Virus record (IMG/VR): IMGVR_UViG_3300028536_000036
Location: 1 to 22,008 of that record
From: a virus
Strand: one strand, 5' to 3'
Length of the DNA stretch: 22,008 nt
Position 1 is the first letter of the stretch. Each line of letters begins with the position of its first letter. Shown piece after piece: positions 9,692 through 22,008 of this stretch. Made by a program: the position numbers and the translations under genes. The notes beneath the pieces were generated by a model. It was not told where the DNA came from and made no database searches. It saw nothing but the letters and a program-made list of their open reading frames with translations.

Positions 9692-9721
9692 AGCATACAC
9701 TTTATGCAAGCATGAGTGCAA
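9692..9721 (-). promoter_or_regulatory. Promoter for the 424-aa gene, with operator in the spacer
   Basis: On the minus strand TTGCAC (9721-9716), an 18-nt spacer and TATGCT (9697-9692) precede the gene starting at 9664. The operator-like motif ATGCTTGCAT fills the spacer, so a bound protein would block polymerase. Confidence 0.6.
9704..9713. promoter_or_regulatory. Operator-like inverted repeat ATGC-AA-GCAT, site 2
   Basis: ATGCAAGCAT between the -35 and -10 of the promoter at 9692-9721. A second copy starts 12 nt away, about one helical turn, which would suit side-by-side binding. Confidence 0.65.
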
Positions 9722-9725
9722 GCAT
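9716..9725. promoter_or_regulatory. Operator-like repeat, site 3 (one mismatch)
   Basis: GTGCAAGCAT overlaps the -35 of the same promoter and its last base is part of the TAA stop (9725-9727) of the upstream gene, the same placement as site 1. Confidence 0.55.
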
Positions 9726-10209: not shown

Positions 10210-11255
10210 GATGCCACCATCGAAAAGCTGACAACCCACACCCATGGATTCGCCGCCCAACTTCTAGCACCGTTGATGTCCTCCCACAATGCTCTGTAGC
10301 GCGCAACAGGACTGGGACCGAGCGGCGGAGCGATATTGGACAGAGCAAGCCGTTTCCACTGCGCGTGCTCCGCCGCATAAGCTGGGAAGTGTCCATCTAT
10401 CCATTCGTGGCCAAGTGATAGTACGCCTTCGTAAATGGCGTCTACGGCGCTAGTTTCTTGCAATCGCTGTACGCGTACCTCTGCGATCTCCAGAGTGCGA
10501 TGTCCCAATAGAGGCATAGGAGCTACTGCTGGAAGCCATCGTTTTCCAGATAGGATTCTGGATATCTGAGATTGCGTGACACTGTGGCGTTCCGCTATGT
10601 CCTGCTGTCTCCATCCTTTATCCGACAGGAGTTTGATAGATAATATTTCCGCATCATTCAAGATGGACATGCCGTTGACGGACCCATTTTGTTTCGATAC
10701 CCGCCCATGAGCAACCTTGTCGGAAATATTGTCATCGTTATTCCCGAGATATAAATGATCGGGATTCACGCACCACCGCAGGTCGCAGGTATGCAATACA
10801 TGCTTCCCGGCAGGTATGTGACCATTAGCCAATTCCCAAGAAAGTCGATGTGTAGATATCTGCTCGCCAGCGTTTCTTATACGTCCATATCCCTTCCGAT
10901 CGACCAAGCCAAACCATTCCCAGCATGACTCGAACTTATAAACGCGCGACCAAAATCTCTCTGCGATAGGAACGGTTTTGGAATATGTTTCAGCCTCTTG
11001 CGCCACCCACAACCTATCTCCAGGCTTGCCGTATGGGCATATACGACCTTCATCTTCATCCGCAGCGCCGTAGACATCAGTACCGGGATATTCTTCGCCG
11101 TGCTGATCGACTCTCGTAGGCGCATACAAGCCGACACCTTCGGGATGCCAGTCTTCGCTCGGTTGATCCTTCACGATCCGCCGCGTCTGCACCTTCCTGC
11201 CTGCAAGGATTGCTTGAACCATGGGTGAGCTGAAAAGTATGGGCCGTTCTTTCAT
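10206..11255 (-). CDS. ASCH-type phage protein invaded in frame by an HNH endonuclease domain
   Basis: 349 residues from ATG 11255, with AGGAG upstream. Residues 1-90 are the start of a common ASCH-type phage protein (RPILFSSPMVQAILAGRK, TRRIVK, CPYGKPGDRLWV); 241-349 are its end (LGHRTLEIAEVRVQRLQE, DAIYEGV, ALWEDINGARSWAANPWVWV). Between them (about 95-240, nt 10973-10536) sits a complete HNH homing-endonuclease unit: CWEWFGLVDRKGYG, HRLSWELANGHIPAGKHVLH, CDLRWCVNPDHLYLG, DDNISD, then a helix-turn-helix (GWRQQDIAERHSVTQSQISR). There is no stop, intron or intein splice motif, so the fusion should be translated as one chain. Whether the ASCH part still folds is unknown. Confidence 0.85.
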   Translation of the reverse strand: MKERPILFSSPMVQAILAGRKVQTRRIVKDQPSEDWHPEGVGLYAPTRVDQHGEEYPGTDVYGAADEDEGRICPYGKPGDRLWVAQEAETYSKTVPIAERFWSRVYKFESCWEWFGLVDRKGYGRIRNAGEQISTHRLSWELANGHIPAGKHVLHTCDLRWCVNPDHLYLGNNDDNISDKVAHGRVSKQNGSVNGMSILNDAEILSIKLLSDKGWRQQDIAERHSVTQSQISRILSGKRWLPAVAPMPLLGHRTLEIAEVRVQRLQETSAVDAIYEGVLSLGHEWIDGHFPAYAAEHAQWKRLALSNIAPPLGPSPVARYRALWEDINGARSWAANPWVWVVSFSMVAS

Positions 11256-11263
11256 CTCTTCTC

Positions 11264-11917
11264 CTATGCCGCCAGCTTCGCCAGCAAGTCCTGTCCTGCA
11301 TTCATGCGTCCGTACACCGTAGTCGTAGCCGCGATAAACTGGCTGACGTCGTAGGCACCGTTCTTGTGCGAGCACAAATGATACTTGCCTGATTTCTTCA
11401 ACTGCACTGCAATCCGTATCGCCCGGCCAGCCCGCGTCGACTTGTAAACTCCGAGTTCCTGGGCGGCCGTCTGGAAAGCCCATGATGGCTGTTCGGCCTC
11501 AACACATTTAAGTTCAAGAACGCAATCATGGCCGTTCAGTTTGCCGAAGCGATCTGGCGTCATAGCCACCTTCATTCCGAATAGCGTAGCGATGATGCCT
11601 TTTTCGATCCACTCGGGATCGGGCACGAAGTGGTTCTCCGCGCGGAACTTCATGTATGCCTGGTAGTACGGCCTCACGCGATCGGTAATCCACGATTCGT
11701 CAATCTCTCCGTGAGTATCATAGGCGGCGGTCAAGTCGTGAACTTCGGTGCCTCTTTCCTGGGCGTTTCGGAGGACGTCGGGTGCGATCATGGAGTAGTC
11801 AGTGAGGCCTTGGAGGCGGAGGATTTGCGTAATCGAAGGGACGAGCACACCTGTTGAATCGCGGTAAATATGGCCTTCCCGCTGGAAGGTTCCGCCATCG
11901 ATGGAGATGATGCTCAC
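11264..11917 (-). CDS. PD-(D/E)XK exonuclease (phage recombination nuclease)
   Basis: 217 residues from a GTG at 11917 that overlaps the TGA of the upstream gene (GTGA). Nuclease-core motifs are visible: GTEVHDLTAAYD near residue 56, the metal-binding segment TPDRFGKLNG..VLELKC near 119-138, and AFQTAAQELGVY after it, as in RecB/Cas4/RecE-like phage nucleases. It would resect DNA ends so that the RecT-type protein encoded at 13592-14461 can anneal strands. Lambda-type exonuclease is the closest functional analogy. Confidence 0.85.
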   Translation of the reverse strand: MSIISIDGGTFQREGHIYRDSTGVLVPSITQILRLQGLTDYSMIAPDVLRNAQERGTEVHDLTAAYDTHGEIDESWITDRVRPYYQAYMKFRAENHFVPDPEWIEKGIIATLFGMKVAMTPDRFGKLNGHDCVLELKCVEAEQPSWAFQTAAQELGVYKSTRAGRAIRIAVQLKKSGKYHLCSHKNGAYDVSQFIAATTTVYGRMNAGQDLLAKLAA

Positions 11918-12117
11918 CGGCTGCTCACCGTATAGATAACGTTAGAGACTGAACCAAATAGGAAAATTGCGATAAATATCTGAGCCGTCAATGAGCCGTT
12001 AACCGCAATCCGCAGGACAATACAGAAAATAACAATGGAAAGGACGAAGAACCAAAACATTAACACCCCTTTCAGCCCTTTCTTGTTTATCCCTAGCCAT
12101 GTTTTTCCGTTTGTCAT
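11914..12117 (-). CDS. Small two-helix membrane protein
   Basis: 67 residues from ATG 12117, with AAGGAG five bases upstream. A short basic N-terminus (NGKTWLGINKKGLKG) is followed by two hydrophobic helices (VLMFWFFVLSIVIFCIVLRI and LTAQIFIAIFLFGSVSNVIY). It would sit in the inner membrane. The size would suit a holin or an exclusion protein, but it lies between DNA-metabolism genes. Not assigned. Confidence 0.62.
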   Translation of the reverse strand: MTNGKTWLGINKKGLKGVLMFWFFVLSIVIFCIVLRIAVNGSLTAQIFIAIFLFGSVSNVIYTVSSR

Positions 12118-12119
12118 CA

Positions 12120-12290
12120 CTACTCCTTCACCATGTGAATCTCTTTGAACACCGTGGCTATCAATCCAGGATGGTATCCCTTATCGTAAAGCGACCTCAT
12201 GCCCTCAATCGCTTCGAGTCTCGGCGTAGACGGAACCCCTATAAGCGCAACGATATTGTCATACCATTCTTCAATCGGCTCCGGCCTCAT
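12120..12290 (-). CDS. Small phage protein, unknown
   Basis: 56 residues from ATG 12290, overlapping the TGA of the upstream gene (ATGA). Helical and acidic (PEPIEEWYDNIVALIGVP, RLEAIEGMRSLYDKGYHPGL). The overlaps on the 5' side and 2-nt gap on the 3' side mark a tightly packed operon. No motif recognised. Confidence 0.55.
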   Translation of the reverse strand: MRPEPIEEWYDNIVALIGVPSTPRLEAIEGMRSLYDKGYHPGLIATVFKEIHMVKE

Positions 12291-12508
12291 GGCTTCACCG
12301 AGAACAAGGCCGTCGGATGTTCCGTATCGCCAACTCCACGCAAGGCACCATCCGCTCGCAATGCTCCGTACCATGCCATTGCCCGCACAAGTTCTTCGTA
12401 TCGCAAGGAAACGATCTCATGGCCTTCTGGCCTATCACGGAGCCACAGGTTATCGAGGAAGACGCTGGCCGCTTCCAGTTGCTCTGGAGTTACGTCGGTT
12501 CCACGCAT
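12287..12508 (-). CDS. Small phage protein, unknown
   Basis: 73 residues from ATG 12508, with GAGGT six bases upstream. Helical; contains TPEQLEAASVFLDNLWLRD and YEELVRAMAWYGALRADGAL. Ends in the ATGA overlap with the 56-aa gene. No family recognised. Confidence 0.6.
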   Translation of the reverse strand: MRGTDVTPEQLEAASVFLDNLWLRDRPEGHEIVSLRYEELVRAMAWYGALRADGALRGVGDTEHPTALFSVKP

Positions 12509-12511
12509 GGA

Positions 12512-12697
12512 CTACCTCTTTCTCGCAATGGTTCCGTAGGTGGGCGGGTTGCGAATAGAGTCCGCGAACTTCGGGCGAATCGGGCGCTCCGCCTCAGTGC
12601 ATAGGCCAGCATGGAGACCGAACTCAAACTCCAGACAGTCCGAGTAATACTTGCTGATCTCGGCCATCCTCGCCTCTACGGTTTCGACGATCGACAT
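12512..12697 (-). CDS. Small phage protein, unknown
   Basis: 61 residues from ATG 12697, two bases after the TAG of the membrane-protein gene. A TTG at 12718 would add seven residues and overlap that gene; the ATG is the more natural choice. Helical start (VETVEARMAEISKYYSDCLE) and a basic end. Function unknown. Confidence 0.58.
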   Translation of the reverse strand: MSIVETVEARMAEISKYYSDCLEFEFGLHAGLCTEAERPIRPKFADSIRNPPTYGTIARKR

Positions 12698-12699
12698 GG

Positions 12700-13065
12700 C
12701 TAATTCCCAATCATCCAAAGATGGATAGCGTATCCGGTGAAGAGCAGGAGTAGCGGGCCAATCACAAGCTGACCAATCATCTTCATCGATTTATCCCAAC
12801 CGTTCTCATTCTCGTCTTTCTTGGAGTCGCTGCTGGTTACAGTTTTGAACGCTGTAACGATACAGTTTATTCCATACATCGGCCAGAGCGTGATCTGTGG
12901 CGCGTGCAGGTAGGGAACCGCGAACCATGTCCACAGATGAACCTTGATCCAGGCATCGAAGATGCCGAATGGGATCATCAGAAACCACATCACGGCAATC
13001 ATAGTCACCGCAGCAGGGAATACAAAAAACGATTGGGTTACCGAAAGCTTCGTATCGCTAGCCAT
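12700..13065 (-). CDS. Membrane protein with about three transmembrane helices
   Basis: 121 residues from ATG 13065, with GAGGA five bases upstream; the same GAGGACGA leader is used at 8279. Hydrophobic segments: FFVFPAAVTMIAVMWFLMIP, then WTWFAVPYL to YGINCIVTAF (less certain), and QLVIGPLLLLFTGYAIHLWM at the end, with a charged loop (SSDSKKDENENGWDKSMK) between. Probably inner-membrane. No family recognised; superinfection exclusion or lysis control are guesses only. Confidence 0.68.
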   Translation of the reverse strand: MASDTKLSVTQSFFVFPAAVTMIAVMWFLMIPFGIFDAWIKVHLWTWFAVPYLHAPQITLWPMYGINCIVTAFKTVTSSDSKKDENENGWDKSMKMIGQLVIGPLLLLFTGYAIHLWMIGN

Positions 13066-13093
13066 GTTCGTCCTCGATTGACAGAGATGTTTA

Positions 13094-13129
13094 GAGGGTG
13101 GCCACCGCAGCCATGCACCGACCACCCTC
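13094..13129. other. Intergenic hairpin
   Basis: GAGGGTGG (13094-13101) can pair with CCACCCTC (13122-13129) across a 20-nt loop, between the secreted coiled-coil gene and the membrane-protein gene. No T-run follows on the minus strand, so it is a weak terminator at best; it could be a processing site. Confidence 0.35.
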
Positions 13130-13174
13130 ACCCGCGCAGGGAACCCGTCAAGATACCCACGCGAGAACTTGTGA

Positions 13175-13561
13175 CTACTTTCCAGCCGCAGGAGCCGGAG
13201 CAGGCTTCTCGAACTTGTGGGTCTGCCGGTTGAAAACGACGTCATCACCCCAGCCGTTTTCCTTCTTCACCTTGAGTTCGTATGCCGCCACAACCTTGTC
13301 TGCATCCACGAACTGCGTCCGGAGCTCGTTGAGCTGCTTGTCGAGTTGCTCCTTCACCTGGGTGCTGATGATCTGCGCTTTGAGTTGCACGTTCTCTTCT
13401 GTGGCCAGGGCCAGCTTGACGGAATCGTCGATCGCAGCCACCTTCGGCTTGACCTCAACCATCGGTGTACCCGTATGCGGTTGATTGACCGCCGGTGATT
13501 GTTGCGCGAATGCTACTGCCGCGAAAAGAAGAACTGCCGTAATGACGAAAATACGCTTCAT
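13175..13561 (-). CDS. Secreted coiled-coil phage protein
   Basis: 128 residues from ATG 13561, with GGAGG four to five bases upstream. Sec signal peptide (MKRIFVITAVLLFAAVAFA, cleavage before QQSP), then a Pro/Val-rich spacer and a heptad-type coiled coil (ENVQLKAQIISTQVKEQLDK, QLNELRTQFVDADKVVAAYE) and a Pro/Ala-rich end. It would be periplasmic. It lies between recT and the membrane protein. An inner spanin is possible in size and shape, but a cleavable signal argues against it. Confidence 0.7.
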   Translation of the reverse strand: MKRIFVITAVLLFAAVAFAQQSPAVNQPHTGTPMVEVKPKVAAIDDSVKLALATEENVQLKAQIISTQVKEQLDKQLNELRTQFVDADKVVAAYELKVKKENGWGDDVVFNRQTHKFEKPAPAPAAGK

Positions 13562-13591
13562 GTTTCCTCCGTAAAACTGTCTATGCCTAGA

Positions 13592-14461
13592 TTACTCGGC
13601 GTCGGGGTTGACTGGAATTTCAGGATTGCGCGTCTCGGCCCATGCCATCGCATCATCGAGCTTCGATGTTGGGATGCTGCGCGAGTCCAGGGGCGGCTCT
13701 ATGCCGATGCCCTTCAGGTACACGGCGGCGTCATCGCGGTTCCAGCCAGAGGCAGTGTAGGCCTTGTACCACTTCGTTGCCAAAGGAGCACCGATGGGTT
13801 CGTCTACTGGCTCTTGGGTGGCAGGGGTATCGGCAGAGACCGAGGACGACTGCATTGCGTCTGCCTCGATGATCGGATAGTCGCGCGCTTCCTCGACAAG
13901 AACCATGCCCTTCATGATGTCAGGGAAGGCATTGCGGAGAGCGAATCCTCGGGCCCTGAGTTGAAGCATCCTGCTCGGATACTTGCCCCACGTAGACTCC
14001 TTCGAAAGCAGTCCAGCAGTCTTGGCGTCGTCCATCGTGAATGTCACAGACACTTCGGTCGGGGAATCCCGCCGCTTCGCCTTGCACGTCGCCGAACCGC
14101 GCTGCTTGATTTCCGACAGATCCATCTCGGTGACATACTGGCAGATGTGCGGCTTGGAATAGCAAAGAGCGAGTGCAGCATCTCCCCAGATTGCCGGGTT
14201 ACCGTTAATGCTGGAGATGTTCTGAATTGCCTGCATGGGTTGCAACCCAACTTCTAAACCGTGCTGGAGCACAACGACAATCGTCGCACGGGCAACCTCT
14301 GGCTTCATGGATGCATAAGCTTTGGGCGCCATCCCGGAAGTAAGGATGATGTCGGCGAACTCAAATGCTTCTTTGAGCGACCGGGGGGCGAAGGTTTCAG
14401 ATCGAGACACTTCGATCTGGGCGGGCTGGATGGTTTCGAGAGAATATGGGTTCGATGACAT
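13592..14461 (-). CDS. recT: RecT-family single-strand annealing protein
   Basis: 289 residues from ATG 14461. The RecT core is clear: GLEVGLQPMQAIQNISSING, NPAIWGDAALAL, a Cys/Lys/Arg strand (SATCKAKRR), FTMDDAKTAGLLSKESTW, and YPSRMLQLRARGFALRNAFP with KGMVLVEEARD. The last ~90 residues are a Pro/Glu-rich linker and a small C-terminal segment (WYKAYTASGWNRDDAAVYLK). It anneals complementary strands during phage recombination, with the exonuclease at 11264-11917 as partner. Transcription probably starts at the operator-bearing promoter at 14500-14528. Confidence 0.92.
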   Translation of the reverse strand: MSSNPYSLETIQPAQIEVSRSETFAPRSLKEAFEFADIILTSGMAPKAYASMKPEVARATIVVVLQHGLEVGLQPMQAIQNISSINGNPAIWGDAALALCYSKPHICQYVTEMDLSEIKQRGSATCKAKRRDSPTEVSVTFTMDDAKTAGLLSKESTWGKYPSRMLQLRARGFALRNAFPDIMKGMVLVEEARDYPIIEADAMQSSSVSADTPATQEPVDEPIGAPLATKWYKAYTASGWNRDDAAVYLKGIGIEPPLDSRSIPTSKLDDAMAWAETRNPEIPVNPDAE

Positions 14462-14499
14462 GGTTGACGGGTTCCTTTCAGTTCGTTCTTACTTTCACA

Positions 14500-14528
14500 A
14501 CTCTAATTCCATGCAAGCATCATGTCAA
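14500..14528 (-). promoter_or_regulatory. Strong promoter for recT operon, operator in the spacer
   Basis: Minus strand: TTGACA (14528-14523), 17-nt spacer, TAGAGT (14505-14500), about 40 nt before the recT ATG. It is the best sigma70-type match in the window. The operator-like ATGCTTGCAT lies inside the spacer, so repression by steric block is likely. Confidence 0.72.
14511..14520. promoter_or_regulatory. Operator-like inverted repeat ATGC-AA-GCAT, site 4
   Basis: ATGCAAGCAT in the spacer of the recT promoter, ending 5 nt before the -10 in the minus-strand reading. Confidence 0.68.
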
Positions 14529-14533
14529 TAGAA

Positions 14534-15169
14534 TTATTGCTTGCGGCGGTATTCTCCGTGTAACTTCTCCGCTGCCACCTCATAGGCGGCTTGCGCGTCC
14601 GATAATTCCTTGTACCTGCCAAGATTGATTTGGATGTTGTTGACGGTAATATGCACCTGAAACCGCTGACGTGATTTATCCCAAGAAATGCCCCTACATC
14701 CGCTAGTGTTGTCTTTTCGTAGTTTAGTGTTTATCCCATTCTGCCTATGTGTTGATGGGCGTAGATTATCGTAACGGTTGTCCAACGTATTTCCGTTGAT
14801 GTGGTCTGCCCTTCTTCCCGGCGGCGGATTCAATATCGCCGCGTGCATCTTCATGGTCTGATTACTTGGCAATCCCCTCTCGGCATAATACTGGTCAAGC
14901 TTGGGGTCGTAGAGGGCATACCACTTCCACTGCATCAGCCATTCGTATCGTGATGCGTCAACAATCGCAACCTGTCCTTGCGTGAGCGCAATATAGCGAA
15001 TCATCGGGTCATCTGGTTGGACAATTACTGGGCGCTCCATGAACCCCTGATGCCCGAAAATGTATGGGTTTGGCTTGCCGCGCACGGTTCCGCTTCTTGT
15101 ATGGTTATCTGTAGCTATTCTGGTTTTCTGGCCGCAACCGCAGTGGCACTCGCCGTAAGCAATTTCCAT
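14534..15169 (-). CDS. HNH homing endonuclease with AP2-type DNA-binding domain
   Basis: 211 residues from ATG 15169, with a perfect AGGAGG five bases upstream. The N-terminal knuckle CHCGCGQKTR precedes KPNPYIFGHQG; the HNH core is around residues 105-150 (MKMHAAILNPPPGRRADHIN, NTLDNRYDNLRPSTHRQN); an AP2 domain follows at 155-205 (GCRGISWDKSRQRFQVHI, YKELSDAQAAYEVAAEKLHG). Free-standing homing endonucleases of this design nick DNA and spread between phages. It sits immediately upstream of the recT promoter. Its ribosome site is partly inside a hairpin (15178-15207), which may limit translation. Confidence 0.92.
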   Translation of the reverse strand: MEIAYGECHCGCGQKTRIATDNHTRSGTVRGKPNPYIFGHQGFMERPVIVQPDDPMIRYIALTQGQVAIVDASRYEWLMQWKWYALYDPKLDQYYAERGLPSNQTMKMHAAILNPPPGRRADHINGNTLDNRYDNLRPSTHRQNGINTKLRKDNTSGCRGISWDKSRQRFQVHITVNNIQINLGRYKELSDAQAAYEVAAEKLHGEYRRKQ

Positions 15170-15177
15170 GTCATCCT

Positions 15178-15207
15178 CCTGAGTAGGGCGGCGGCCTAGA
15201 GCTCAGG
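15178..15207 (-). promoter_or_regulatory. Hairpin touching the ribosome site of the HNH gene
   Basis: CCTGAG with CTCAGG, plus inner TAGG with CCTA, form a two-part stem. On the minus-strand transcript its last three bases (AGG) are next to or part of the AGGAGG Shine-Dalgarno of the endonuclease, so folding would partly hide it. Confidence 0.4.
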
Positions 15208-15250
15208 ACTCCAAGCCACCTGATCGGATCATGACTTCCGACGTTACCTC

Positions 15251-15279
15251 ATTCTACATCTTCATTTTGACGCTTGCAC
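15251..15279. promoter_or_regulatory. Divergent control region with operator half-site
   Basis: The minus strand has a good -10 (TAGAAT, 15256-15251) and a weak -35 (TGCAAG, 16-nt spacing). The plus strand has TTGCAC (15274-15279) as the -35 of the plus-strand unit. Both -35 elements overlap CGCTTGCAC, a partial copy of the ATGCTTGCAT operator, which suggests shared control of both directions. Confidence 0.45.
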
Positions 15280-15302
15280 CATCTTTCTGCAACCATTACA
15301 CT
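15274..15302 (+). promoter_or_regulatory. Promoter of the plus-strand unit, nearly leaderless
   Basis: TTGCAC (15274-15279), 17-nt spacer, TACACT (15297-15302). Only nine bases separate the -10 from ATG 15312, and no Shine-Dalgarno is present, so the mRNA would be leaderless or nearly so. Confidence 0.58.
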
Positions 15303-15311
15303 GTATTCATT

Positions 15312-15512
15312 ATGGCGTCCAAGAAAACGACAAATGAAAGATCAAAAAAGTCTAAGCCCCTTACCAAGAAAAACGACCGCTTCTATGAAATTGTCGGCGG
15401 ACTCGGTGGGAATGCGACGCTCCAGAGCAAGGGCAAAGAGCACTTCTCACGCATGGCAACGCTTCGTCACCAGCGCAACCGCGAAGCAAAGCTGCTCGCA
15501 GGGAACGAGTGA
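15312..15512 (+). CDS. Small basic KGG-like peptide
   Basis: 66 residues from ATG 15312, chosen because it follows the promoter at the spacing of a leaderless message. Very basic start (SKKTTNERSKKSKPLTKK), then GGLGGNATLQSKGKEHFSRM, resembling the Gly-Gly / Lys-Gly-rich repeats of KGG-type stress peptides. It is the first gene on the plus strand and divides the two minus-strand blocks. It stops with TGA at 15510, where a GTG overlaps (GTGA), just where the conserved part of the next frame begins. Regulator or DNA-binding role is inferred. Confidence 0.55.
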   Translation: MASKKTTNERSKKSKPLTKKNDRFYEIVGGLGGNATLQSKGKEHFSRMATLRHQRNREAKLLAGNE

Positions 15513-16149
15513 GATATCGCTCCACGACCTTGCAGCCGAACTCGGGGTATCGCTCGACCGCCTGCAGCCACTGCTCGATCACCAGTACCTCCGCTTCACC
15601 CGCCAGAACTTCGTTGTGCGGCCCAAGCCGGCGGCAATCGCATGGCTCCGCACCATGTTTCAGCCACTCACGATGCGCCCATGGCTTTCATCGCAGATGG
15701 TGGCGGACCTTACCGGCGTTCGCATAGGCGAGCTTCAAACCCTCTGCCTGATGTACGACGTCCCACTTCAGTCCGATCCCGTCTTCGGCGAGCTGATGTC
15801 AATCGCATCCTTTCACCGCTTCTTCAACTGCCTGCATCACTACCGCGACCCATCCAGATTCGACCGCCAGGCCCTGCTCCGGGTGCTGATGGAGGCTATT
15901 TCCTACAAAGACGATCAGGAGATGGCAATTCCGAAACTGCCATTCAGTCGACGGCTCGATCATGAGATCCGGCGCATCGCACGGCTGGACGAACCAGACC
16001 GCACATTCAGGGCTACAGCACTCTTGGAAGCCTACCGGGATGCTAAGGGTGTCGCAGACGCTTTCACGCGCTACAAAGGGCTTGTGGAGCCAGATATTGA
16101 AGGTATGGTGAAGTTGGAAGAAGTGGTGAGAAAATCTACTGGGATTTAG
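15385..16149 (+). CDS. Helix-turn-helix-like protein, start unresolved
   Basis: The convincing coding part runs from about 15511 to 16149 (212 residues): ISLHDLAAELGVSLDRLQPL, a first helix-turn-helix-like block, then RPWLSSQMVADLTGVRIGEL, a second one, followed by an all-helical charged end. No ATG, GTG or TTG with a ribosome site opens this frame near 15511; the nearest ATG (15385) overlaps the KGG-like gene. Either translation starts unusually, a frameshift joins it to the small gene, or there is an indel. Being the only plus-strand unit, with an operator half-site on its promoter, it is a candidate for the regulator of the ATGC-NN-GCAT sites. That is inference. Confidence 0.6.
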   Translation: MKLSADSVGMRRSRARAKSTSHAWQRFVTSATAKQSCSQGTSEISLHDLAAELGVSLDRLQPLLDHQYLRFTRQNFVVRPKPAAIAWLRTMFQPLTMRPWLSSQMVADLTGVRIGELQTLCLMYDVPLQSDPVFGELMSIASFHRFFNCLHHYRDPSRFDRQALLRVLMEAISYKDDQEMAIPKLPFSRRLDHEIRRIARLDEPDRTFRATALLEAYRDAKGVADAFTRYKGLVEPDIEGMVKLEEVVRKSTGI

Positions 16150-16255
16150 CTAACTGCTTTTCCAGTTCCTTGTGATGGCGATTGCATAGGTGTCCCGGGG
16201 TTGGATTACCGGTACAGACACGGCACATAAGGCGTGTATCAACTTCGAATTTCAT
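16136..16255 (-). CDS. 39-residue zinc-knuckle microprotein
   Basis: ATG 16255 overlaps the TGA of the upstream small gene (ATGA), with GGAG six bases upstream. The product has CRVC near residue 11 and, 12 residues later, GHLCNRHH, giving a Cys/His metal site, then a Lys/Glu-rich helix. It converges with the plus-strand gene and overlaps its last 14 nt. Such microproteins are easily missed by length cut-offs; the coupling, ribosome site and Cys/His pattern argue that it is real. Confidence 0.6.
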   Translation of the reverse strand: MKFEVDTRLMCRVCTGNPTPGHLCNRHHKELEKQLAKSQ

Positions 16256-16437
16256 CGGCTGCTCCGTCGTGCTTGACTGGCCCTGCGCTGGTTGCGCTTG
16301 CCGTACTTGCCTCGTCCAGCAGCTTTCATCAACCTAGCAGGTATTGGCCTACCGGCAGAGGTTCCAGTTGCGCGCTGGAGTGCACCGCGGCGTTTGCCGG
16401 AAGCTTGCGCGCCCCATCTGGATTTTGTCCGAGCCAT
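16252..16437 (-). CDS. Small, very basic phage protein
   Basis: 61 residues from ATG 16437, with AGGTGG upstream. Very rich in Arg and Lys (MARTKSRWGAQASGKRRG, then PIPARLMKAAGRGKYGKRNQ). It probably binds nucleic acid. It is first in a two-gene unit with the 39-aa zinc protein and has its own operator-bearing promoter. Confidence 0.6.
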   Translation of the reverse strand: MARTKSRWGAQASGKRRGALQRATGTSAGRPIPARLMKAAGRGKYGKRNQRRASQARRSSR

Positions 16438-16454
16438 AACTGCCACCTGTCCAA

Positions 16455-16489
16455 CTGCAAGCATAACAGAAATCCATGCATGGACGCAA
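16455..16489 (-). promoter_or_regulatory. Promoter and operator for the small basic gene
   Basis: Minus strand: TTGCGT (16489-16484), 18-nt spacer, TATGCT (16465-16460). The motif ATGCTTGCAG (16464-16455), one base off the consensus operator, overlaps the -10 and the start of transcription. CCATGCATGG in the spacer is a related palindrome. Confidence 0.5.
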
Positions 16490-16495
16490 CAGAAA

Positions 16496-16513
16496 TCCCA
16501 CCCGAAGGTGGGA
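16496..16513 (-). terminator. Terminator with UUCG loop
   Basis: TCCCACC paired with GGTGGGA around a TTCG loop (minus-strand reading), followed by TTTCTGTT. It ends the coiled-coil gene (stop 16548), and the next promoter begins right after it. Confidence 0.72.
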
Positions 16514-16547
16514 CTCTGTTACCTGTCTGCTGGGGGATATCTACAAA

Positions 16548-17150
16548 TTATACGCCGTGAACGACTCCGGGATCAGTCCCCACAGCTTCCGTGCCGGGCT
16601 GACTTGCAGTGCCAGTCCCGGTTGTCCCCGTACTTACGGGAGCAGTAACCGAGGTTCCGACAGGAACAACAGTCGGATTTGGAGCGGGGATTGCCGCCGT
16701 CAGCGCACTTGTGCTGCTGGCAATGCTGGTGTTCGACGTCTCGATTGCAGTGTTGTTTGCACTGATGGTCGTGGCGCTGGCGCTGATACCCTGGGCAGCC
16801 GCTTCGATCTGGGCGATCAGAGCCGACTGGTCAGGAGTAGGGCTGCTGTTTTGCAAGGCGGTGATGGCATCGGCAATCTCTGTGGTTGCTGCGGTGATAG
16901 CAGATGCCTCTGCTGTGGACGCAGCGGTGTTCTCGGCCACGGCCGCAGTCTCGGCGGTAACGGCTATGGTCAGGTCGGAAACGGCTTGTGAGAGGGTTAC
17001 GGTAGCGGTCGACATGGTTTTTATTCCCTCGAGGATGTGGTGTTGGTTTCGGATGATGATGCTTTGATTCTCTTCGATGCGGTGAAGCCGTTGGGCGACT
17101 GGCTCGAAGAAACGAAAGAACCGGGCTTCGAACGCAGAAAACTCACTCAT
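16548..17150 (-). CDS. Ala/Thr-rich coiled-coil phage protein
   Basis: 200 residues from ATG 17150, with AGGA seven bases upstream. An internal ATG (17015) with GAGGG upstream would give a 155-residue form. Residues 1-45 are an amphipathic helix (FEARFFRFFEPVAQRLHRIE), then a long Ala/Thr/Ser helix with regular hydrophobic spacing (LSQAVSDLTIAVTAETAAVA, AIEAAAQGISASATTISAN), then a Pro/Thr/Gly-rich tail. It looks like a trimeric or dimeric coiled coil. Function unknown. Confidence 0.68.
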   Translation of the reverse strand: MSEFSAFEARFFRFFEPVAQRLHRIEENQSIIIRNQHHILEGIKTMSTATVTLSQAVSDLTIAVTAETAAVAENTAASTAEASAITAATTEIADAITALQNSSPTPDQSALIAQIEAAAQGISASATTISANNTAIETSNTSIASSTSALTAAIPAPNPTVVPVGTSVTAPVSTGTTGTGTASQPGTEAVGTDPGVVHGV

Positions 17151-17164
17151 GGGGATATCCTATC

Positions 17165-17174
17165 ATGCTCGCAT
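17165..17174. promoter_or_regulatory. Operator-like inverted repeat ATGC-TC-GCAT, site 5
   Basis: Perfect arms with a different centre. It lies 15 nt before the coiled-coil gene; on the minus strand a possible -10 (TAGGAT) follows two bases later, with only a weak -35. Confidence 0.5.
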
Positions 17175-17287
17175 AGGAGCGCAGTTGCTTTTCCGTTAGA
17201 TGCAGGATTATCAATTCGTGTCTCGTTTATCCTCTGAGACCAGAGCGACAACGCTTTTCGTGCGCCATCCCCATTTTATCGCAAAAC

Positions 17288-17321
17288 AAAAGGGTAGGGG
17301 CTGGTTAGCCTCTACCCTTTT
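17288..17321. terminator. Strong terminator ending the tRNA / ornate-RNA unit
   Basis: AAAAGGGTAGGGG (17288-17300) faces CCTCTACCCTTTT (17309-17321) across an 8-nt loop, 13 bp with one G-T pair. It has A-runs and T-runs on both sides, so it can work in both directions. In the minus direction it ends the RNA that covers the structured region. Confidence 0.8.
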
Positions 17322-17326
17322 CGCTA

Positions 17327-17439
17327 TGGCTGCCTACAGATTTGAACTGTGGACTTCCTTCACTTGGCGCTTCATCTATGGATATCGCCATAGCGAGAGG
17401 CGTTGCTGGAGGCACTCTACCTAACTGAGTTATGCAGCC
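17327..17439 (-). tRNA. 113-nt tRNA-like element with enlarged anticodon arm
   Basis: The acceptor-type stem is GGCTGC / GCAGCC and extends to nine pairs with the flanking TAT / ATA. A normal D arm (ACTC-AGTTAGGTA-GAGT) and a T arm with TTCAAAT loop are present. No CCA follows. Between D and T arms are about 61 nt instead of the usual 22-24: CCTCC can pair with GAAGG as an anticodon stem, but the loop is replaced by some 46 nt containing hairpin CTATGG-CGATAT-CCATAG. No U33-anticodon pattern is visible. It may be a degenerate tRNA, a tRNA with an insert, or a tRNA-like end domain of the large RNA. Confidence 0.55.
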
Positions 17440-18240
17440 ATACCGAAACTCTTGCAGCGAGTAATTCGCAATACCCGCATTTGGGATTTGCCGGAGGCTT
17501 CCAACCGGACCATGCTCGCTGCAAAACTTTTGCGGGTAGCGGTCCCGCCCTTTACCTCTGCTCGGTCAGCATTTACTCCGATGTGCCTTGGCTTCCGAAT
17601 CTTACTGCGACGCCGCTATTCGTCTCGACTCGGTTGCTGGCAGCCCACTGACCTTTGCCTTTCGGCCATCGTCGGTTTAGGTTATGTCTTTCAATGGGTC
17701 ACACATAAAGCGGCACAACGGAAGGTACACTGTCCCTTCCTCTCGTCATGCGCCGGTTATTAGCCGGGCGCTTTACATGCTCAGGGACATCCGATCCGAA
17801 GATCGCTGCCCTAAAACTTTGCCCTGGCACCCGTACTGTGCCTCGCGTCTACCATGACGCGCTCCATGTGCGGAATCCACACATCCGGGAGTTGAACCCG
17901 GTTGCCCTATGGGGTTGGATTGGTTTTCTCTCCAACTAGTATGTCGGTACTTACCGTATACCATCCCCAACTCAAACTTGAAGCAGTTCGGTTTGATTAC
18001 CGAAACGTCTCATTTGCCCCGCATGAGACCCCTATCGCGTGTACTCACCCTTGCTACCGGGCTTTCTGGTCAGGTCTTGGATCGCCAAGCCGCTGCAACT
18101 CATAACGTGTAACGCCTCGTATTGCACTCGCGGGATAGTCTTAGGAGACCTCCACAACCCTCATCGTTCGTAGACATTTAGAGGCCGTCTTGAACAACTC
18201 GACAAAGTCATCCAGCCTACTTGCTGTGCCGAAGCACATT
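17440..18240 (-). ncRNA. Candidate giant structured RNA (GOLLD/ROOL-type setting)
   Basis: Some 800 nt without a credible gene lie between tRNA-type elements. The minus strand folds into many local hairpins: GTGC-UUCG-GCAC (18226-18237), CTTGG-CGAT-CCAAG (18076-18089), GTCTCAT/ATGAGAC (18007-18029), TTCGGT/ACCGAA (17987-18004), CGGTA/TACCG (17945-17956), CCGGG/CCCGG (17885-17901), GCGTC/GACGC (17845-17860), GGCAC/GTGCC (17826-17842), CGATC-UUCG-GATCG (17792-17805), GGAAGG/CCTTCC (17720-17740), GCC-GAAA-GGC (17657-17666), and a pseudoknot at 17452-17538. AGUA and GAA elements of loop-E type recur. Size, phage origin and tRNA neighbours match GOLLD or ROOL RNAs; I cannot assign a class from memory of sequence. 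Confidence 0.58.
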
Positions 18241-18244
18241 CCAA

Positions 18245-18315
18245 TGGTTGCGTGAGGATGACTCGAACATCCGTTCCATGGCTTATGAGACCTGGACACC
18301 ACCGTGGTCCTCGCA
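18245..18315 (-). tRNA. Degenerate tRNA, Met-type (CAT) anticodon
   Basis: Good T arm (GGATG-TTCGAGT-CATCC), acceptor TGCGAGG / TCACGCA (one mismatch, one wobble), discriminator A and encoded CCA. The anticodon loop CTCATAA gives CAT, but its stem has only three good pairs and the D arm is short, so the fold is weak. The element starts about six bases after the -10 of the promoter at 18321-18350. Confidence 0.55.
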
Positions 18316-18320
18316 AAACC

Positions 18321-18350
18321 AATGTATCATACATGCGAGCATCTGTGCAA
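18321..18350 (-). promoter_or_regulatory. Promoter inside the tRNA cluster, operator in the spacer
   Basis: Minus strand: TTGCAC (18350-18345), 18-nt spacer, TACATT (18326-18321). Transcription would begin at or next to the 5' end of the Met-type tRNA and continue into the structured RNA. The operator-like ATGCTCGCAT fills the spacer. Confidence 0.62.
18333..18342. promoter_or_regulatory. Operator-like inverted repeat ATGC-GA-GCAT, site 6
   Basis: Perfect ATGC / GCAT arms inside the promoter spacer, between tRNA-Tyr and the Met-type tRNA. Confidence 0.6.
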
Positions 18351-18358
18351 CTAAAAAA

Positions 18359-18446
18359 TGGTGGACTCGGAGAGATTCGAACTCTCAATGCTCGATGAGC
18401 TCCGGGGTTACAGGCCGGTAGGGCTACCAATTGCCCCGTCGAGTCC
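18359..18446 (-). tRNA. tRNA-Tyr(GTA)
   Basis: Acceptor GGACTCG / CGAGTCC with all seven pairs, discriminator A and encoded CCA. Anticodon loop CTGTAAC gives GTA. The long variable arm (GCTC-ATC-GAGC) fits bacterial Tyr tRNA. T arm GAGAG-TTCGAAT-CTCTC. Six T's directly follow the CCA on the minus strand and could help end or slow transcription. Confidence 0.9.
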
Positions 18447-18450
18447 AATT

Positions 18451-18544
18451 TGGCGGTAGAGACAGGAGTCGAACCCGCTTGTGATGGGATCGCCACCACT
18501 GACTAGTTTTCAAGACTAGCGCCCCACCGTGGAGCACCTCTACC
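18451..18544 (-). tRNA. tRNA-Ser(TGA)
   Basis: Acceptor GGTAGAG / CTCTACC, discriminator G and encoded CCA. Anticodon stem CTAGT / ACTAG with loop CTTGAAA, anticodon TGA. Long variable arm as expected for Ser. Only four bases separate it from tRNA-Tyr. Confidence 0.92.
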
Positions 18545-18548
18545 ATGT

Positions 18549-18636
18549 TGGCGGAAACGGCTGGATTCGAACCAGCGGCACCCGTAGGTGCTTCGCGTTA
18601 GCAGTGCGATGCCATAGACCACTCGGCCACGCTTCC
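18549..18636 (-). tRNA. tRNA-Ser(GCT)
   Basis: Acceptor GGAAGCG / CGTTTCC (one G-T), discriminator G and encoded CCA. Anticodon loop CTGCTAA, anticodon GCT. Variable arm GCACC-TAC-GGGTGC. T arm GCTGG-TTCGAAT-CCAGC. Confidence 0.92.
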
Positions 18637-18641
18637 GTACT

Positions 18642-18725
18642 TGGTGCGGATGAGGAAGTCGAATCCTCACGTCCGTAGACACTGCGTTTTGAGTGCAGCG
18701 CGTCTGCCTGTTCCGCCATATCCCC
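18642..18725 (-). tRNA. tRNA-Leu(CAA), imperfect acceptor
   Basis: Anticodon loop CTCAAAA gives CAA; Leu-type D arm (GGCGGAACAGGCAGACGCG) and variable arm (GTC-TAC-GGAC); T arm GAGGA-TTCGACT-TCCTC; encoded CCA. The acceptor (GGGGAT / ATCCGC) has a G-G mismatch and fits only six pairs, so charging may be poor. Confidence 0.8.
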
Positions 18726-18731
18726 AAAACA

Positions 18732-18759
18732 AAACCCTCACCGGTTAGGGTGAGGGTTT
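18732..18759 (-). terminator. Terminator-like hairpin just before tRNA-Leu
   Basis: AAACCCTCACC pairs with GGTGAGGGTTT (11 bp, 6-nt loop); on the minus strand it is followed by TTTTGTTTT, which runs into the first bases of tRNA-Leu. It would stop transcripts from the 86-aa gene, or act as an attenuator for the four tRNAs. Confidence 0.68.
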
Positions 18760-18903
18760 GCACTCGTCGAAAACTTTGGCCTATATGCCTCTGCCTCGCG
18801 CGCGCAAACCCACTCCCAATGAGGAGAGCAGATATAACGAACTGAGGCATAGGTTCTTCACGATTTTGAGTCTATGCGTAGACGGCGGATGAAGTCAAGA
18901 ACT

Positions 18904-19164
18904 TTATTTATGCTTTCTCGTATATCCTTCCTCGAAGGCTGCTGCCGGAGAGTAGCTGTAGTAGCCATCAGGATAAACAATGTAGTACCAGCCTGCCTGC
19001 GGCATTGGTCTTCGGTGTGTACTGGTCATGAACTCCGGGTAGCGAACGTCTTCGGGCGTGATGAAGATGTCGCAAGAGTTTGGTAGCTCGCGGATGCACT
19101 TGATCTTCAGGGCGTGAACCTCTTTGTGGCACACGTAGAGCGGAAGTTCTTGAATGTTTTCCAT
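18904..19164 (-). CDS. Small conserved-type phage protein
   Basis: 86 residues from ATG 19164; no Shine-Dalgarno is present, but a promoter -10 ends only seven bases upstream, so the message may be leaderless. Contains VHALKIKCI, a central acidic strand (DIFITPEDVRYPEF) and the ending WYYIVYPDGYYSYSPAAAFE-EGYT, a pattern I know from small phage proteins of unknown function. The 145 nt between its stop and the terminator at 18759 hold nothing I can name. Confidence 0.72.
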   Translation of the reverse strand: MENIQELPLYVCHKEVHALKIKCIRELPNSCDIFITPEDVRYPEFMTSTHRRPMPQAGWYYIVYPDGYYSYSPAAAFEEGYTRKHK

Positions 19165-19170
19165 GGCTGT

Positions 19171-19204
19171 AGTCTATGCCGGGACTCGCGTCTCATGCAA
19201 GCAT
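19171..19204 (-). promoter_or_regulatory. Promoter and operator (site 7) for the 86-aa gene
   Basis: ATGCAAGCAT at 19195-19204; on the minus strand its TTGCAT (19200-19195) can serve as -35, with 18-nt spacing to TAGACT (19176-19171). The motif's last base is part of the TAA (19204-19206) of the 51-aa gene. Confidence 0.5.
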
Positions 19205-19359
19205 TATCTTCGGCTAGACTTCCGCTGCTTCACTCTCTTAGGAAGTCGCTTGCCTTTGGGGGTAGCGCGCTCCCATCGTTTTACAGTTGCACGGCTGATT
19301 TCGCCACGACGTGCTTTGGCATAGAACAGTTTCCTTTGAGATTCGCTCCGAAACGGCAT
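19204..19359 (-). CDS. 51-residue basic phage protein
   Basis: ATG 19359 with GAGGTGA at the right distance, four bases after the stop of the large upstream gene. The chain MPFRSESQRKLFYAKARR is followed by GEISRATVKRWERATPKGKR and a Lys/Arg-rich end. This matches a widespread small phage protein (MPFKSxAQRRxFYA ... KWExETPKGKKLPERV) of unknown role, often found beside virion genes. Likely real despite its length. Confidence 0.8.
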   Translation of the reverse strand: MPFRSESQRKLFYAKARRGEISRATVKRWERATPKGKRLPKRVKQRKSSRR

Positions 19360-19362
19360 ACA

Positions 19363-21678
19363 TCACCTCACCAAATGTCTTCCTCTACGTGCTGGCCGTC
19401 CGTGACGGGTAGGCGTGAAACCTGAAGCTATAGCGGCTGGCTTGCTTCTTCCTGCAATACCTTCGATCGACTTTTCCAGCGGCAAGACGCTGTGTACAAA
19501 GTTCAACGCGGCATCCTTGCGTCTCTCTCCTGGGGTCTTCCTGTGGTTCACGCCATCGTCGTTGAACGTCTCTGCTGTCTCAAATACAGCCTTGCCAAAT
19601 GCGTGGGCGTCGGAGCCGATGATGCCACCAGAAGCCTCATCCATAAGCGCGTACTTCAGCCGCGCATTGGCTTTCTTCTTGTCCTTCTGATCTTCCGTTC
19701 CAAGCGTGTCGAACACCATCTTGGCAGGGTAGAGTCCGACCGCGAAAGAAACGTTAGCGAGCTCCAGCCATAGTGCATCCTTCGGATTGTGAAGGGCGGT
19801 CTCCAGTCTGCGCTTGTCTTCTTCGGCTCCTGCTGGGTTCGTCTTCGACTTGACGCCAATCATCATCAACTGCATTCCGAGACCGGCGGCACCGGCATTG
19901 ACCATAAATCGCCCCAGCGACCTGAATTCCTTGTCGCTCCACTTCGGATCGCGCAGGCCTTCGATGACCGTGCGGTTAACGAGGTTCATTGTCTTGAACG
20001 TGAACGTCTTCAGTTGCCACGTCAGGCGGACCATCGCATTGTAGGTCTGCGCCATCTTCTCATCGGAATGCAGTCTCATGACCGCTGGTAACTCCGACGG
20101 CCGCCCGCTGCCAGTTGTCCAGTCCGCCGCAGCGATCATGGCGCGCTTCACATCGTTTGCGTCTACACCGTTCTTGGCGATGCGGTCGATATCCTCGTCA
20201 GAGAATGCGTACAGATCCTTCAATTGGCGACGCAGCGCCGGGTTCGATGGATTCTTCTTCAGTTCCGGCTCAACGTATCGTTCGAGATAAACGCGACCAG
20301 AGGCTCCAGAGAACAGGCGTGTGACCCAGATCATCGGCGTGAACCCGGTAACAGTGAGCATCTTCTGCGCCCAGCCACCTGCATGGAGGCCCTGCTCCAT
20401 CATCATCTGCTGACGCACGTAGTCGTTCAGGATTCCGGCGTCCTTCGCCATACGCTTCGCTTCGACAGGGTGTGCAGCAACGCTCAGAACTCCCCCAAGG
20501 AGCGACCGCGTGTTCGTCACCATCGATGTCTTCCATCCGTGGAATCCAACCTTCAGGAAGCTCAGGCCCATCTTTGTCAGCACGGTCCATTGCGACGCAA
20601 GGCGCAGGGTTGTGCGGTTGTCGCGGCCCATCGACAGTGGGTTAAGGTCTGCGGTCACGATACCGTCAACTACGCGCATACTGGATTCTGGCAAGGCGTG
20701 GATGAATGGGTTGATCTTTTCGCGCTCCTGGCCGACAGTCTTGATGTTCGCCAGCATCTCGCTTGCCTGGCTGATGTAAATGTTCAACTCGCGGGCAGAT
20801 TCACCATAGCCAGCCATAGTGGTCCGGCGGCCTTTTTCAAGGTTGCCAGCCAGCCGCATGTCGGAACGGTTCTTCTCGAAAAACTCCGCGGCCTGCATCT
20901 TGTTGATGCCCATCTTGCCAGCGTACTTCTCGATCATCTTCTCGCGGCGCTCATCGCCGATCGGCATGTCCTTGATCTTCGCTAGCGTCGTCACCTCGCC
21001 GTTGAGGATGAACTCCTTGTTCCAGTCGTAGATGTGCGGCCAATAGTTCGGGTTTTCCTCGATGTCCGAATAGGGAATGTACCGCTTTTTCCCGTCCTCG
21101 TACACCGGCATCTTCGCTCCGGCATCGGCCAGACGCTGGCGGACATAGCCAAAGAAATCCTGCAATCCCTTTGCTGCTTCTGTGATCTTCGGATCGGCGC
21201 TCGTCTCCTTGCCTTCGAGCACACGAACAACCTTTGGGAAGTCTGATTCCGGCGTAGCGGCGATGGTCTCAGCCACATGCGACATGAACTCACCCTGATA
21301 CTGCGTCTTCAAATGGCTGCGCTCGATGAGCTTCCGCTGAATCTCACGACCTTCTTTCGCATACCCAGAGTCGGCCATGTACTTGCGGATCGCCTGGTCG
21401 CCTGAAGTGTGGTACAGGCGCACCCAGTCGGTCACGAAGTTCTTGACGGCATTCGTCTCTGCCTTACGCTTGTAGAGCGCGACCTTGGTCTTGTCTGGAA
21501 GCCTGCTGTAGAGGCGGTCCAGCACGGCACTACGCTCGCCAGCGTCCGCCTTGTGCTCGTCCATGGCCAGCCGCAGCCCAATCTGAGCATCCTTCACTAC
21601 CCGATCAACCTCTGGCTTTCCCGGCTGACCGGATTCGATAGCATCACGCCCTGCTGCAACCGCCTTGGCTTGGATTCC
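19363..21678 (-). CDS. Large helical phage protein, N-terminus lost to an IS insertion
   Basis: The frame is open from 21990, but the phage part begins near 21678 (about 771 residues); the first ~105 codons upstream of it are IS sequence read in the wrong frame. The chain is almost wholly helical and charged (e.g. GKPEVDRVVKDAQIGLRLAM; MGLSFLKVGFHGWKTSMVTN; FKTMNLVNRTVIEGLRDP), with hydrophobic stretches (MVNAAGAAGLGMQLMMIG-like region, near 19890). It resembles the C-terminal part of large phage 'polyvalent' or internal-virion proteins ejected with the DNA; no enzyme domain is visible. Missing start and upstream domains make it a broken gene here. Confidence 0.6.
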   Translation of the reverse strand, partial: GIQAKAVAAGRDAIESGQPGKPEVDRVVKDAQIGLRLAMDEHKADAGERSAVLDRLYSRLPDKTKVALYKRKAETNAVKNFVTDWVRLYHTSGDQAIRKYMADSGYAKEGREIQRKLIERSHLKTQYQGEFMSHVAETIAATPESDFPKVVRVLEGKETSADPKITEAAKGLQDFFGYVRQRLADAGAKMPVYEDGKKRYIPYSDIEENPNYWPHIYDWNKEFILNGEVTTLAKIKDMPIGDERREKMIEKYAGKMGINKMQAAEFFEKNRSDMRLAGNLEKGRRTTMAGYGESARELNIYISQASEMLANIKTVGQEREKINPFIHALPESSMRVVDGIVTADLNPLSMGRDNRTTLRLASQWTVLTKMGLSFLKVGFHGWKTSMVTNTRSLLGGVLSVAAHPVEAKRMAKDAGILNDYVRQQMMMEQGLHAGGWAQKMLTVTGFTPMIWVTRLFSGASGRVYLERYVEPELKKNPSNPALRRQLKDLYAFSDEDIDRIAKNGVDANDVKRAMIAAADWTTGSGRPSELPAVMRLHSDEKMAQTYNAMVRLTWQLKTFTFKTMNLVNRTVIEGLRDPKWSDKEFRSLGRFMVNAGAAGLGMQLMMIGVKSKTNPAGAEEDKRRLETALHNPKDALWLELANVSFAVGLYPAKMVFDTLGTEDQKDKKKANARLKYALMDEASGGIIGSDAHAFGKAVFETAETFNDDGVNHRKTPGERRKDAALNFVHSVLPLEKSIEGIAGRSKPAAIASGFTPTRHGRPARRGRHLVR

Positions 21679-21875
21679 TGCGCGCGCAAACAGACTTCGA
21701 TGTCGCGCAGACTTTCCCGAAACGTCAACTGCGCAAACGCCATACACAAATACTGATCCAAATGCGAAAAGGTTTTGGTCGGATAACTCGACGGATATCG
21801 CGCGATGCAACGCCGGAACGTATGGAGCGGGAGAAAATCCATAAGCTGGGCGAAAACCAGTTTGCCGGTGAACAT
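21678..21875 (-). pseudogene. IS4-family transposase, N-terminal fragment (DUF4372)
   Basis: ATG 21875 begins FTGKLVFAQLMDFLPLH, then TFSHLDQYLCMAFAQLTFRE and SLRDIEVCLRAQ, the typical N-terminal DUF4372 domain of IS4-family transposases. The likeness ends at about residue 66; the catalytic DDE part is absent and phage coding sequence follows at once. It is either a real deletion derivative or an assembly join near a contig end. Confidence 0.82.
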
Positions 21876-22008
21876 TGAGAAACCCCGAGGCCGAAAAACC
21901 CCAGTTTCTCAAATCGGCGTTCAAGTCGGTGACACCCCTAAAATCCGTTTTCTTAGTCTTTGTCAGTGCGTTACACTGTGCGCCCGGCAAAATTGCCGGA
22001 CAGCAGTG
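21678..22008 (-). mobile_element. Partial IS4-family insertion sequence
   Basis: Contains the transposase fragment, its upstream region and, near the window edge, the hairpin CCGGCAA-AA-TTGCCGG (21984-21999) of the kind found at IS ends. The outer end lies at or beyond 22008; the inner end is missing. No target-site duplication can be checked. Confidence 0.65.

Follow-up and report, generated by a model that had tools for sequence, protein, structure and literature searches.

A candidate structured RNA with a conserved pseudoknot module downstream of phage tRNA genes

A non-coding, structured stretch behind the phage tRNA genes

The window analysed here is the whole 22,008-nt stretch at positions 1 to 22,008 of IMG/VR record IMGVR_UViG_3300028536_000036, a virus contig that encodes a DnaB helicase, RecT, HNH nucleases and many orphan proteins. 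On its minus strand, four tRNA genes are followed by a degenerate tRNA-Met-like gene and then by the region under study (Table 1). ARAGORN calls the tRNA-Met-like gene only when the threshold is lowered to 85%, and the Rfam tRNA model gives it 13.1 bits against a cut-off of 29. It aligns over 51 nt at 80.8% identity to a Serratia phage tRNA-Met (E-value of 0.3). A second contig, IMGVR_UViG_3300012927_000013, represents nearly the same virus: it is 99.99% identical over window positions 3595-17743 and begins within the RNA, where one base differs across the 474 shared positions. Neither a homologous prophage nor a host link was found for this phage, which the first-pass annotation had tentatively placed in Acidobacteriota.

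Directly upstream of tRNA-Leu lies a second hairpin-rich non-coding stretch (18869-18732, minus) with its own terminator-like site; the 200 nt at 18741-18940 have a folding z of -3.2. This stretch stands behind the sole promoter-like site (18898-18869) that a sigma-70 scan of 16900-19400 returned, where 1.4 sites are expected by chance. The first-pass annotation had given the downstream RNA an operator-bearing promoter of its own; the palindrome is present, but the scan does not support a separate promoter. That perfect 6-bp palindrome (ATGTAT-C-ATACAT, 18322-18334), just upstream of the tRNA-Met-like gene, is the sole match in the window when up to two mismatches are allowed (0.42 expected). 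An 875-aa protein is encoded at 19363-21990 (minus), and no relative of it was found in Pfam, PHROG, viral contigs, phages or genomes.

Table 1. Features of the tRNA cluster and the candidate RNA, in window coordinates
Feature	Positions	Strand	Basis or remark
tRNA-Leu(CAA), tRNA-Ser(GCU), tRNA-Ser(UGA), tRNA-Tyr(GUA)	18359..18726	minus	ARAGORN; same strand as the RNA, upstream of it
Degenerate tRNA-Met-like gene, anticodon CAU	18245..18317	minus	T-arm good; D and anticodon stems poor
UUCG-capped 5-bp hairpin, between the tRNA-like gene and the pseudoknot	18225..18238	minus	Fold and motif count
Conserved pseudoknot module (71 nt), 5′ end of the RNA	18156..18226	minus	Covariance model and covariation
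Module P1	18218-18215 with 18185-18182	minus	Alignment
Module P2	18198-18193 with 18168-18163	minus	Alignment
Module inner helix GAC/GUC	18189-18187 with 18175-18173	minus	Alignment
Structured middle of the RNA	17443..18155	minus	Stem excess and folding energy
T-arm-like hairpin CCGGG-UUCAACU-CCCGG, inside the RNA	17885..17901	minus	T-arm hairpin scan
Second UUCG-capped 5-bp hairpin	17792..17805	minus	Fold and motif count
tRNA-like domain: 9-bp acceptor-like stem, D-arm-like sequence, T-arm (17350-17336)	17325..17442	minus	Fold
Terminator-like hairpin, then TTTTGTTTT	17281..17320	minus	Sequence and helix probability

The first-pass annotation had seen no convincing gene at 17440-18240, and we find no clear coding signal there either. 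The longest minus-strand ORF lying entirely within the region has 65 aa, and five ORFs within or overlapping it gave no PHROG match better than an E-value of 0.32. Codon scores in 150-nt windows over six frames reached a maximum of 0.05, compared with a median of 0.22 for 83 windows of known genes; as the 10th percentile of these genes is only 0.02, this test is suggestive rather than absolute. On ORF length, codon score and PHROG searches, a coding gene is not supported as an explanation of the region.

Local structure is in excess on the minus strand. Perfect Watson-Crick stems (at least 5 bp, loops of 3-9 nt) number 11 in 18240-17443, close to the dozen first proposed; shuffled sequences have 3.5 on average, none of 200 reaches 11, and the maximum in 46 other windows is 7. 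With G-U pairs permitted there are 23 stems against 15.8 expected (2 of 200 shuffles). The two UUCG loops noticed at the outset also withstand the comparison, as 0.046 capped stems are expected and 1 of 500 shuffles has as many. Two further proposed elements do not: a single GNRA-capped stem, against 0.56 expected, gives no weight to the GAAA loop, and the recurrent AGUA/GAA elements find no support in shuffles, with AGUA present six times against 3.1 expected, a count that 40 of 500 shuffles match, and GAA below its expectation of 18.6 with 11 copies.

The folding energy of the 798-nt stretch has a z of -3.08, which none of 60 shuffles equalled and which is the lowest of 26 window and strand samples (minimum of -2.55 in the 24 samples elsewhere). 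The 961-nt fold gives a z of -5.3, from 20 shuffles only. Stability is uneven along the RNA: the 5′ third shows no excess (z about +0.8 in 200-nt windows over 18041-18440), and the halves folded separately reach a z of -1.7 (5 of 100 shuffles as good). The plus strand of the same stretch is nearly as stable (z of -2.81), and the evidence for the strand lies in motifs, namely T-arm hairpins, not in folding energy. The minus strand of the whole window contains seven such hairpins, every one within this cluster. The annotated tRNAs account for four; the other three, in the Met-like gene, the interior and the 3′ end of the RNA, all fall in 18350-17324, where none of 2000 shuffles has even two.

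At the 3′ end lies a tRNA-like domain in which a long arm takes the position of the anticodon arm (pair probability of 0.95, folding z of -2.52). ARAGORN calls a tRNA here at the 85% threshold with the intron option, and the Rfam tRNA model makes no call on the domain. The strong terminator of the first-pass annotation corresponds to a terminator-like hairpin followed by a T tract (mean pairing probability of 0.96); the hairpin is absent from the list of a simple terminator scan. Because the tRNA-like domain and the terminator are then included, the RNA unit is better drawn as 18240-17281.

These tRNA-like traces could have another origin, the middle being a graveyard of decayed tRNA genes and chance hairpins and the pseudoknot described below the only selected RNA. 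The three T-arm hairpins, one of them interior, would fit such an origin, as would weak tRNA calls in the region at lowered ARAGORN thresholds and a middle without homologues. We consider it improbable: the same low thresholds call tRNAs on the opposite strand too, the Rfam tRNA model finds nothing in the interior up to an E-value of 10, and the stem excess, UUCG caps and minimum free energy all lie beyond shuffles.

A pseudoknot module common to other tailed phages

We queried three genome samples with 17324-18240 by blastn. Among 398 genomes from the phylum of Bradyrhizobium, one contig matched over 54 nt at 82% identity (E-value of 8.9 × 10−7, for one genome); a tRNA-Met lies about 120 nt further downstream on it. 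Samples of 396 and 400 genomes returned a single match (L356), which was rejected as chance, being 28 nt inside a 553-aa ORF. A pattern derived from the blastn match, TTCAAGAC-(6 to 14)-ATGTCTAC, occurs in at least 119 stretches of viral contigs. Among the matches listed, CTGGATG lies no more than 40 nt upstream in 18 of 119, and these 18, with no others, also carry GG, AA and AA flanks; neither feature had been demanded by the pattern. The 101 listed stretches that had neither CTGGATG nor the other flanks were dropped before counting, and the number of viral relatives, at least 18, is a lower bound.

With one relative as query, 13 of 50,697 phage records matched, of which 11 covered at least 80% of it. 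These 11 represent six distinct phages: RiverRider, Paxi, Piffle, Pokken, PB119 and Mica. Two Campylobacter phage matches were rejected (25 nt, E-value of 0.3), and two loci at about 26 bits (L484 and L485) were set aside as chance from 120 nt of each. None of the six named phages has an RNA annotated at the module. In Xanthomonas virus PB119 (L481, 3036-3125), a 90-nt 'hypothetical protein' is drawn over the end of the pseudoknot and is probably a mis-annotated RNA.

The alignment comprises 21 distinct sequences, from RiverRider, Paxi, Mica, 16 IMG/VR contigs, the one genome contig and the window; L400 and L422, whose module is identical to that of L431, were left out. It has 77 columns, 31 of them invariant and 15 of these 31 within the two pattern strings, and its conserved blocks are CUGGAUG, UUCAAGACGG and AAAUGUC.AC.AA. 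The 5′ strand of P1 pairs with a strand located inside the hairpin P2, which makes the fold a pseudoknot. P2, most commonly CCCUU/AAGGG, runs on into the invariant GAC/GUC helix. P1 positions 2 and 4 each occur as A-U, G-C or U-A and are paired in all 21 sequences, while position 5 is paired in 12 of 21 and pairing fades further on. In the window itself, P1 has 4 bp and P2 has 6 bp, including two G-U pairs.

Covariation supports this fold. Pairing holds for 75 of 84 cells at P1 positions 2-5 and for 60 of 63 at P2 positions 1-3, levels that none of 5000 permutations reached, and the three-helix structure pairs 98.3% of cells, against 87.7% in shuffled alignments and at most 56% when the helices are slid. 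Permuted, shuffled and slid controls were exceeded for cells paired, double-changed cells and covariation score, in statistics that ignore kinship among 21 sequences that are not independent. Further pair types exceed their control only weakly (28 of 500), and pairs with double changes show no excess (4 against 3.0, with 151 of 500 controls); seven of the 11 module pairs never vary. The check on covariation that the first-pass annotation had proposed is thus positive for the 71-nt module, while the rest of the RNA has no homologue to align. The first-pass proposal that the phage tRNA cluster contains a structured RNA finds support, which at the 5′ end of the RNA comes from pseudoknot covariation in other phages.

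When the covariance model is built from the other sequences alone, the window scores 52.6 bits (E-value of 3.1 × 10−13; next best place 11.9), a figure inflated because the pattern strings, with 15 of the 31 invariant columns, are conserved partly through sequence selection. The model found nothing above 14.6 bits in 85 other loci (1.24 Mb). It gave one strong match in the 398 genomes from the phylum of Bradyrhizobium and none in 337 genomes from the phylum of an Actinobacteria MAG, and blastn on plasmids found no module; it looks predominantly viral. Rfam searches gave no family that covers the module, at gathering thresholds in 15 loci, up to an E-value of 5 in three loci or up to an E-value of 10 in the window. 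Searches by text and by six motif strings, with subscription papers and most preprints outside their scope, returned no published description of it.

For the middle of the RNA, some 700 nt, no homologue was detected outside the same virus. The 875-aa neighbour led to no relatives, and RecT led to the near-identical contig and to distant phages; over the full length of 50 records, the RNA had no match below an E-value of 0.01 (best 0.012, over 16 nt). A 217-aa neighbour protein has, beyond the same virus, one relative, whose contig ends before the place of the RNA. An exact 29-mer from the RNA recovered the same virus only, and two spaced patterns gave no relative among the matches listed. A 15-mer recovered 19 stretches, one from the same virus and 18 judged chance, 17 of the latter in open frames of at least 130 codons.

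Genomic setting and comparison with known RNAs

The module is linked to tRNA genes. With ARAGORN at a 90% threshold, 17 of 24 loci have a same-strand tRNA within 1.5 kb, and at least two of the seven without a recognised one lie close to a contig or locus end; these counts are not independent, because six of the 24 loci are of the related Pokken/RiverRider type. P1 begins one nucleotide after the CCA of a tRNA-Ser in one contig (L461) and two nucleotides after a predicted tRNA-Thr end in another (L444). The gap from tRNA to module is about 26 nt in the window and about 80-420 nt in Pokken/RiverRider-type loci.

What follows the module also varies. In five Pokken/RiverRider-type loci it is about 450-540 nt of tRNA array up to the next tRNA-Arg, and in RiverRider the tail ends at a terminator-like hairpin and a CDS. 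Burkholderia phage Mica has the order of the window: module, annotated pseudo-tRNA, terminator. An alignment of the Pokken/RiverRider-type tail (six rows, five distinct, as Pokken and L465 are identical over the stretch) gives a covariation term of +0.46, which is no net support; 29 of its 125 pairs change on both sides somewhere, and several helices have double-sided changes (for example columns 278-286 with 366-374). A profile of this RNA matches the window at the pseudoknot only. As the tails behind it differ greatly, the module may be an independent small motif. We nevertheless infer that module and long tail form one functional RNA in the window, because the two are linked, the tail stands out in its structure statistics and has a tRNA-like end, and named phages hold an analogue.

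Other elements were seen in the relatives. A recurrent hairpin near the pseudoknot consists of GAC and a stem with a GGAAAGAC-like purine loop (for example TGACAGCCGGGAAAGACCGGCA). Seven of the 24 loci (L357, L381, L408, L427, L431, L375 and L458) hold 11 copies within 1 kb of the pseudoknot, all on its strand, and no copy lies on the opposite strand of the 24 loci; 80 other viral loci contain 11 copies on both strands together. The hairpin was not found in the window. One pseudoknot-bearing contig (L395) carries an Rfam RT-15 RNA at 8068-8249 (161 bits).

The near-exact tRNA adjacency at two loci raises the question of whether the pseudoknot acts at tRNA 3′ ends, as a self-cleaving ribozyme or another processing element, with the long RNA as a trailer only. 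The blocks conserved within the module junctions would suit this reading, as cores that catalyse or bind ligands typically have such blocks. In HDV-like ribozymes, which fold as a nested double pseudoknot, a P3 hairpin separates P2 from P1; in the 21 sequences, by contrast, about 7 nt lie between the P2 5′ and P1 3′ strands, which leaves no room for a P3. Theta ribozymes, which are HDV-like, are pseudoknots at the 3′ ends of phage tRNAs (PMC10879173), and our module likewise is a pseudoknot 3′ of phage tRNAs. Its 5′ end lies within 5 nt of a tRNA 3′ end in only two of 24 loci, the window not among them, and the wide Pokken/RiverRider-type gaps and the seven loci without a nearby tRNA also speak against it. 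We regard such a processing role, in which the module would take the part of theta ribozymes in gut phages through a different fold, as a main rival reading but an unlikely one.

A cis-acting switch, riboswitch-like or protein-bound, is the other main rival and similarly unlikely; it would govern expression or termination of the downstream RNA or tRNAs. Upstream of the module, a strand can pair over 7-10 bp with the P1 5′ strand in six of 21 loci (L476, L395, L436, L381, L431 and Mica/L478), in a hairpin of changing sequence with loops of 15-20 nt that looks mutually exclusive with P1. These six were chosen by eye, without a shuffled control, and three others (L434, L357 and L367) reach 7-12 bp through other, partly G-U-rich pairings. 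No hairpin of this kind is present in the window, where the best pairing is 5 bp, and the downstream neighbour differs between loci.

The setting also recalls two large RNAs named in the first-pass annotation, which had proposed a divergent GOLLD or ROOL member or else a new class. According to PMC12286853, GOLLD is a large phage RNA near tRNA genes, with the env-38 example downstream of a Met-tRNA and a linker that can contain tRNAs; ROOL is a large phage or prophage RNA near tRNA islands; and both form RNA cages for which a folded-scaffold role has been proposed. The window RNA is likewise large and encoded next to phage tRNA genes. It has no match to the model of the conserved 3′ region of GOLLD (RF02032) at gathering or relaxed thresholds (E-value up to 10), a result that rests on a model without a positive control. 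ROOL (RF03087) was unmatched at both thresholds as well, in a search that gave 130.4 bits on plasmid pMP118 (NC_007930), and the pseudoknot model in turn finds nothing in the pMP118 ROOL locus. To our knowledge, no pseudoknot module of this kind is known in GOLLD. Membership in either family is not borne out; of the alternatives first proposed, a new class fares better.

YrlA and other bacterial Y RNAs, which occur in phages too, contain a tRNA-like module, as the window RNA does, and tmRNA joins a pseudoknot and a tRNA-like domain in one RNA, a combination also present here. With YrlA (RF02553) the window reaches 17 bits, where the cut-off is 69. For tmRNA, ARAGORN makes no call in the window, and the permuted tmRNA model scores 13.8 bits against 47, over a tRNA gene. 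No covariance model for group I introns or other Rfam ribozymes matched the window, and a plain tRNA array is not supported as a reading of the region. The RNA shares its genomic setting with GOLLD, ROOL and theta ribozymes and fails the tested defining features of each.

A possible scaffold RNA of the tRNA operon

We conclude with high confidence that the region holds a structured non-coding RNA at roughly 18240-17281 (minus), after the tRNA genes of the phage, which begins with a pseudoknot module common to other tailed phages and unmatched by the Rfam families tested, and which has a tRNA-like domain and then a terminator-like hairpin at its 3′ end. Its identity as a phage RNA with a putative new pseudoknot module is well supported.

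As to function, a tRNA-operon scaffold RNA is the best explanation overall, and we give it an even chance. Somewhat less assured is the mechanism that would go with it. The RNA would be transcribed together with the tRNAs, cut free by tRNA-trimming enzymes at its tRNA and tRNA-like borders, and then act in trans as a stable folded RNA of its own. The conserved pseudoknot may be the shared part, used for recognition or assembly, and the long middle a lineage-specific scaffold; the action of the RNA might in this way resemble that of GOLLD and ROOL, as a phage RNA distinct from both. More speculatively still, it may belong to an undescribed class of phage RNAs, in which a conserved 5′ pseudoknot core is joined to ornate tails specific to each lineage. 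These tails would reach about 900 nt at most and could close with a tRNA-like domain. Such a core would have a new fold, for catalysis or for recognition, through which the RNA is freed and assembled while the phage infects its host.

Large RNAs encoded in phage tRNA islands pose a standing problem: the cages formed by GOLLD and ROOL have no established purpose. The RNA described here would join them as a further candidate class, independent and unannotated, whose module is small, conserved and covarying. This module is present in cultured phages (Pokken, Paxi, Piffle, RiverRider, PB119 and Mica), and tests of structure, cleavage, deletion and binding are therefore feasible. Should the module prove catalytic, it would represent a new ribozyme fold; should it prove a binding platform, it would indicate a shared partner.
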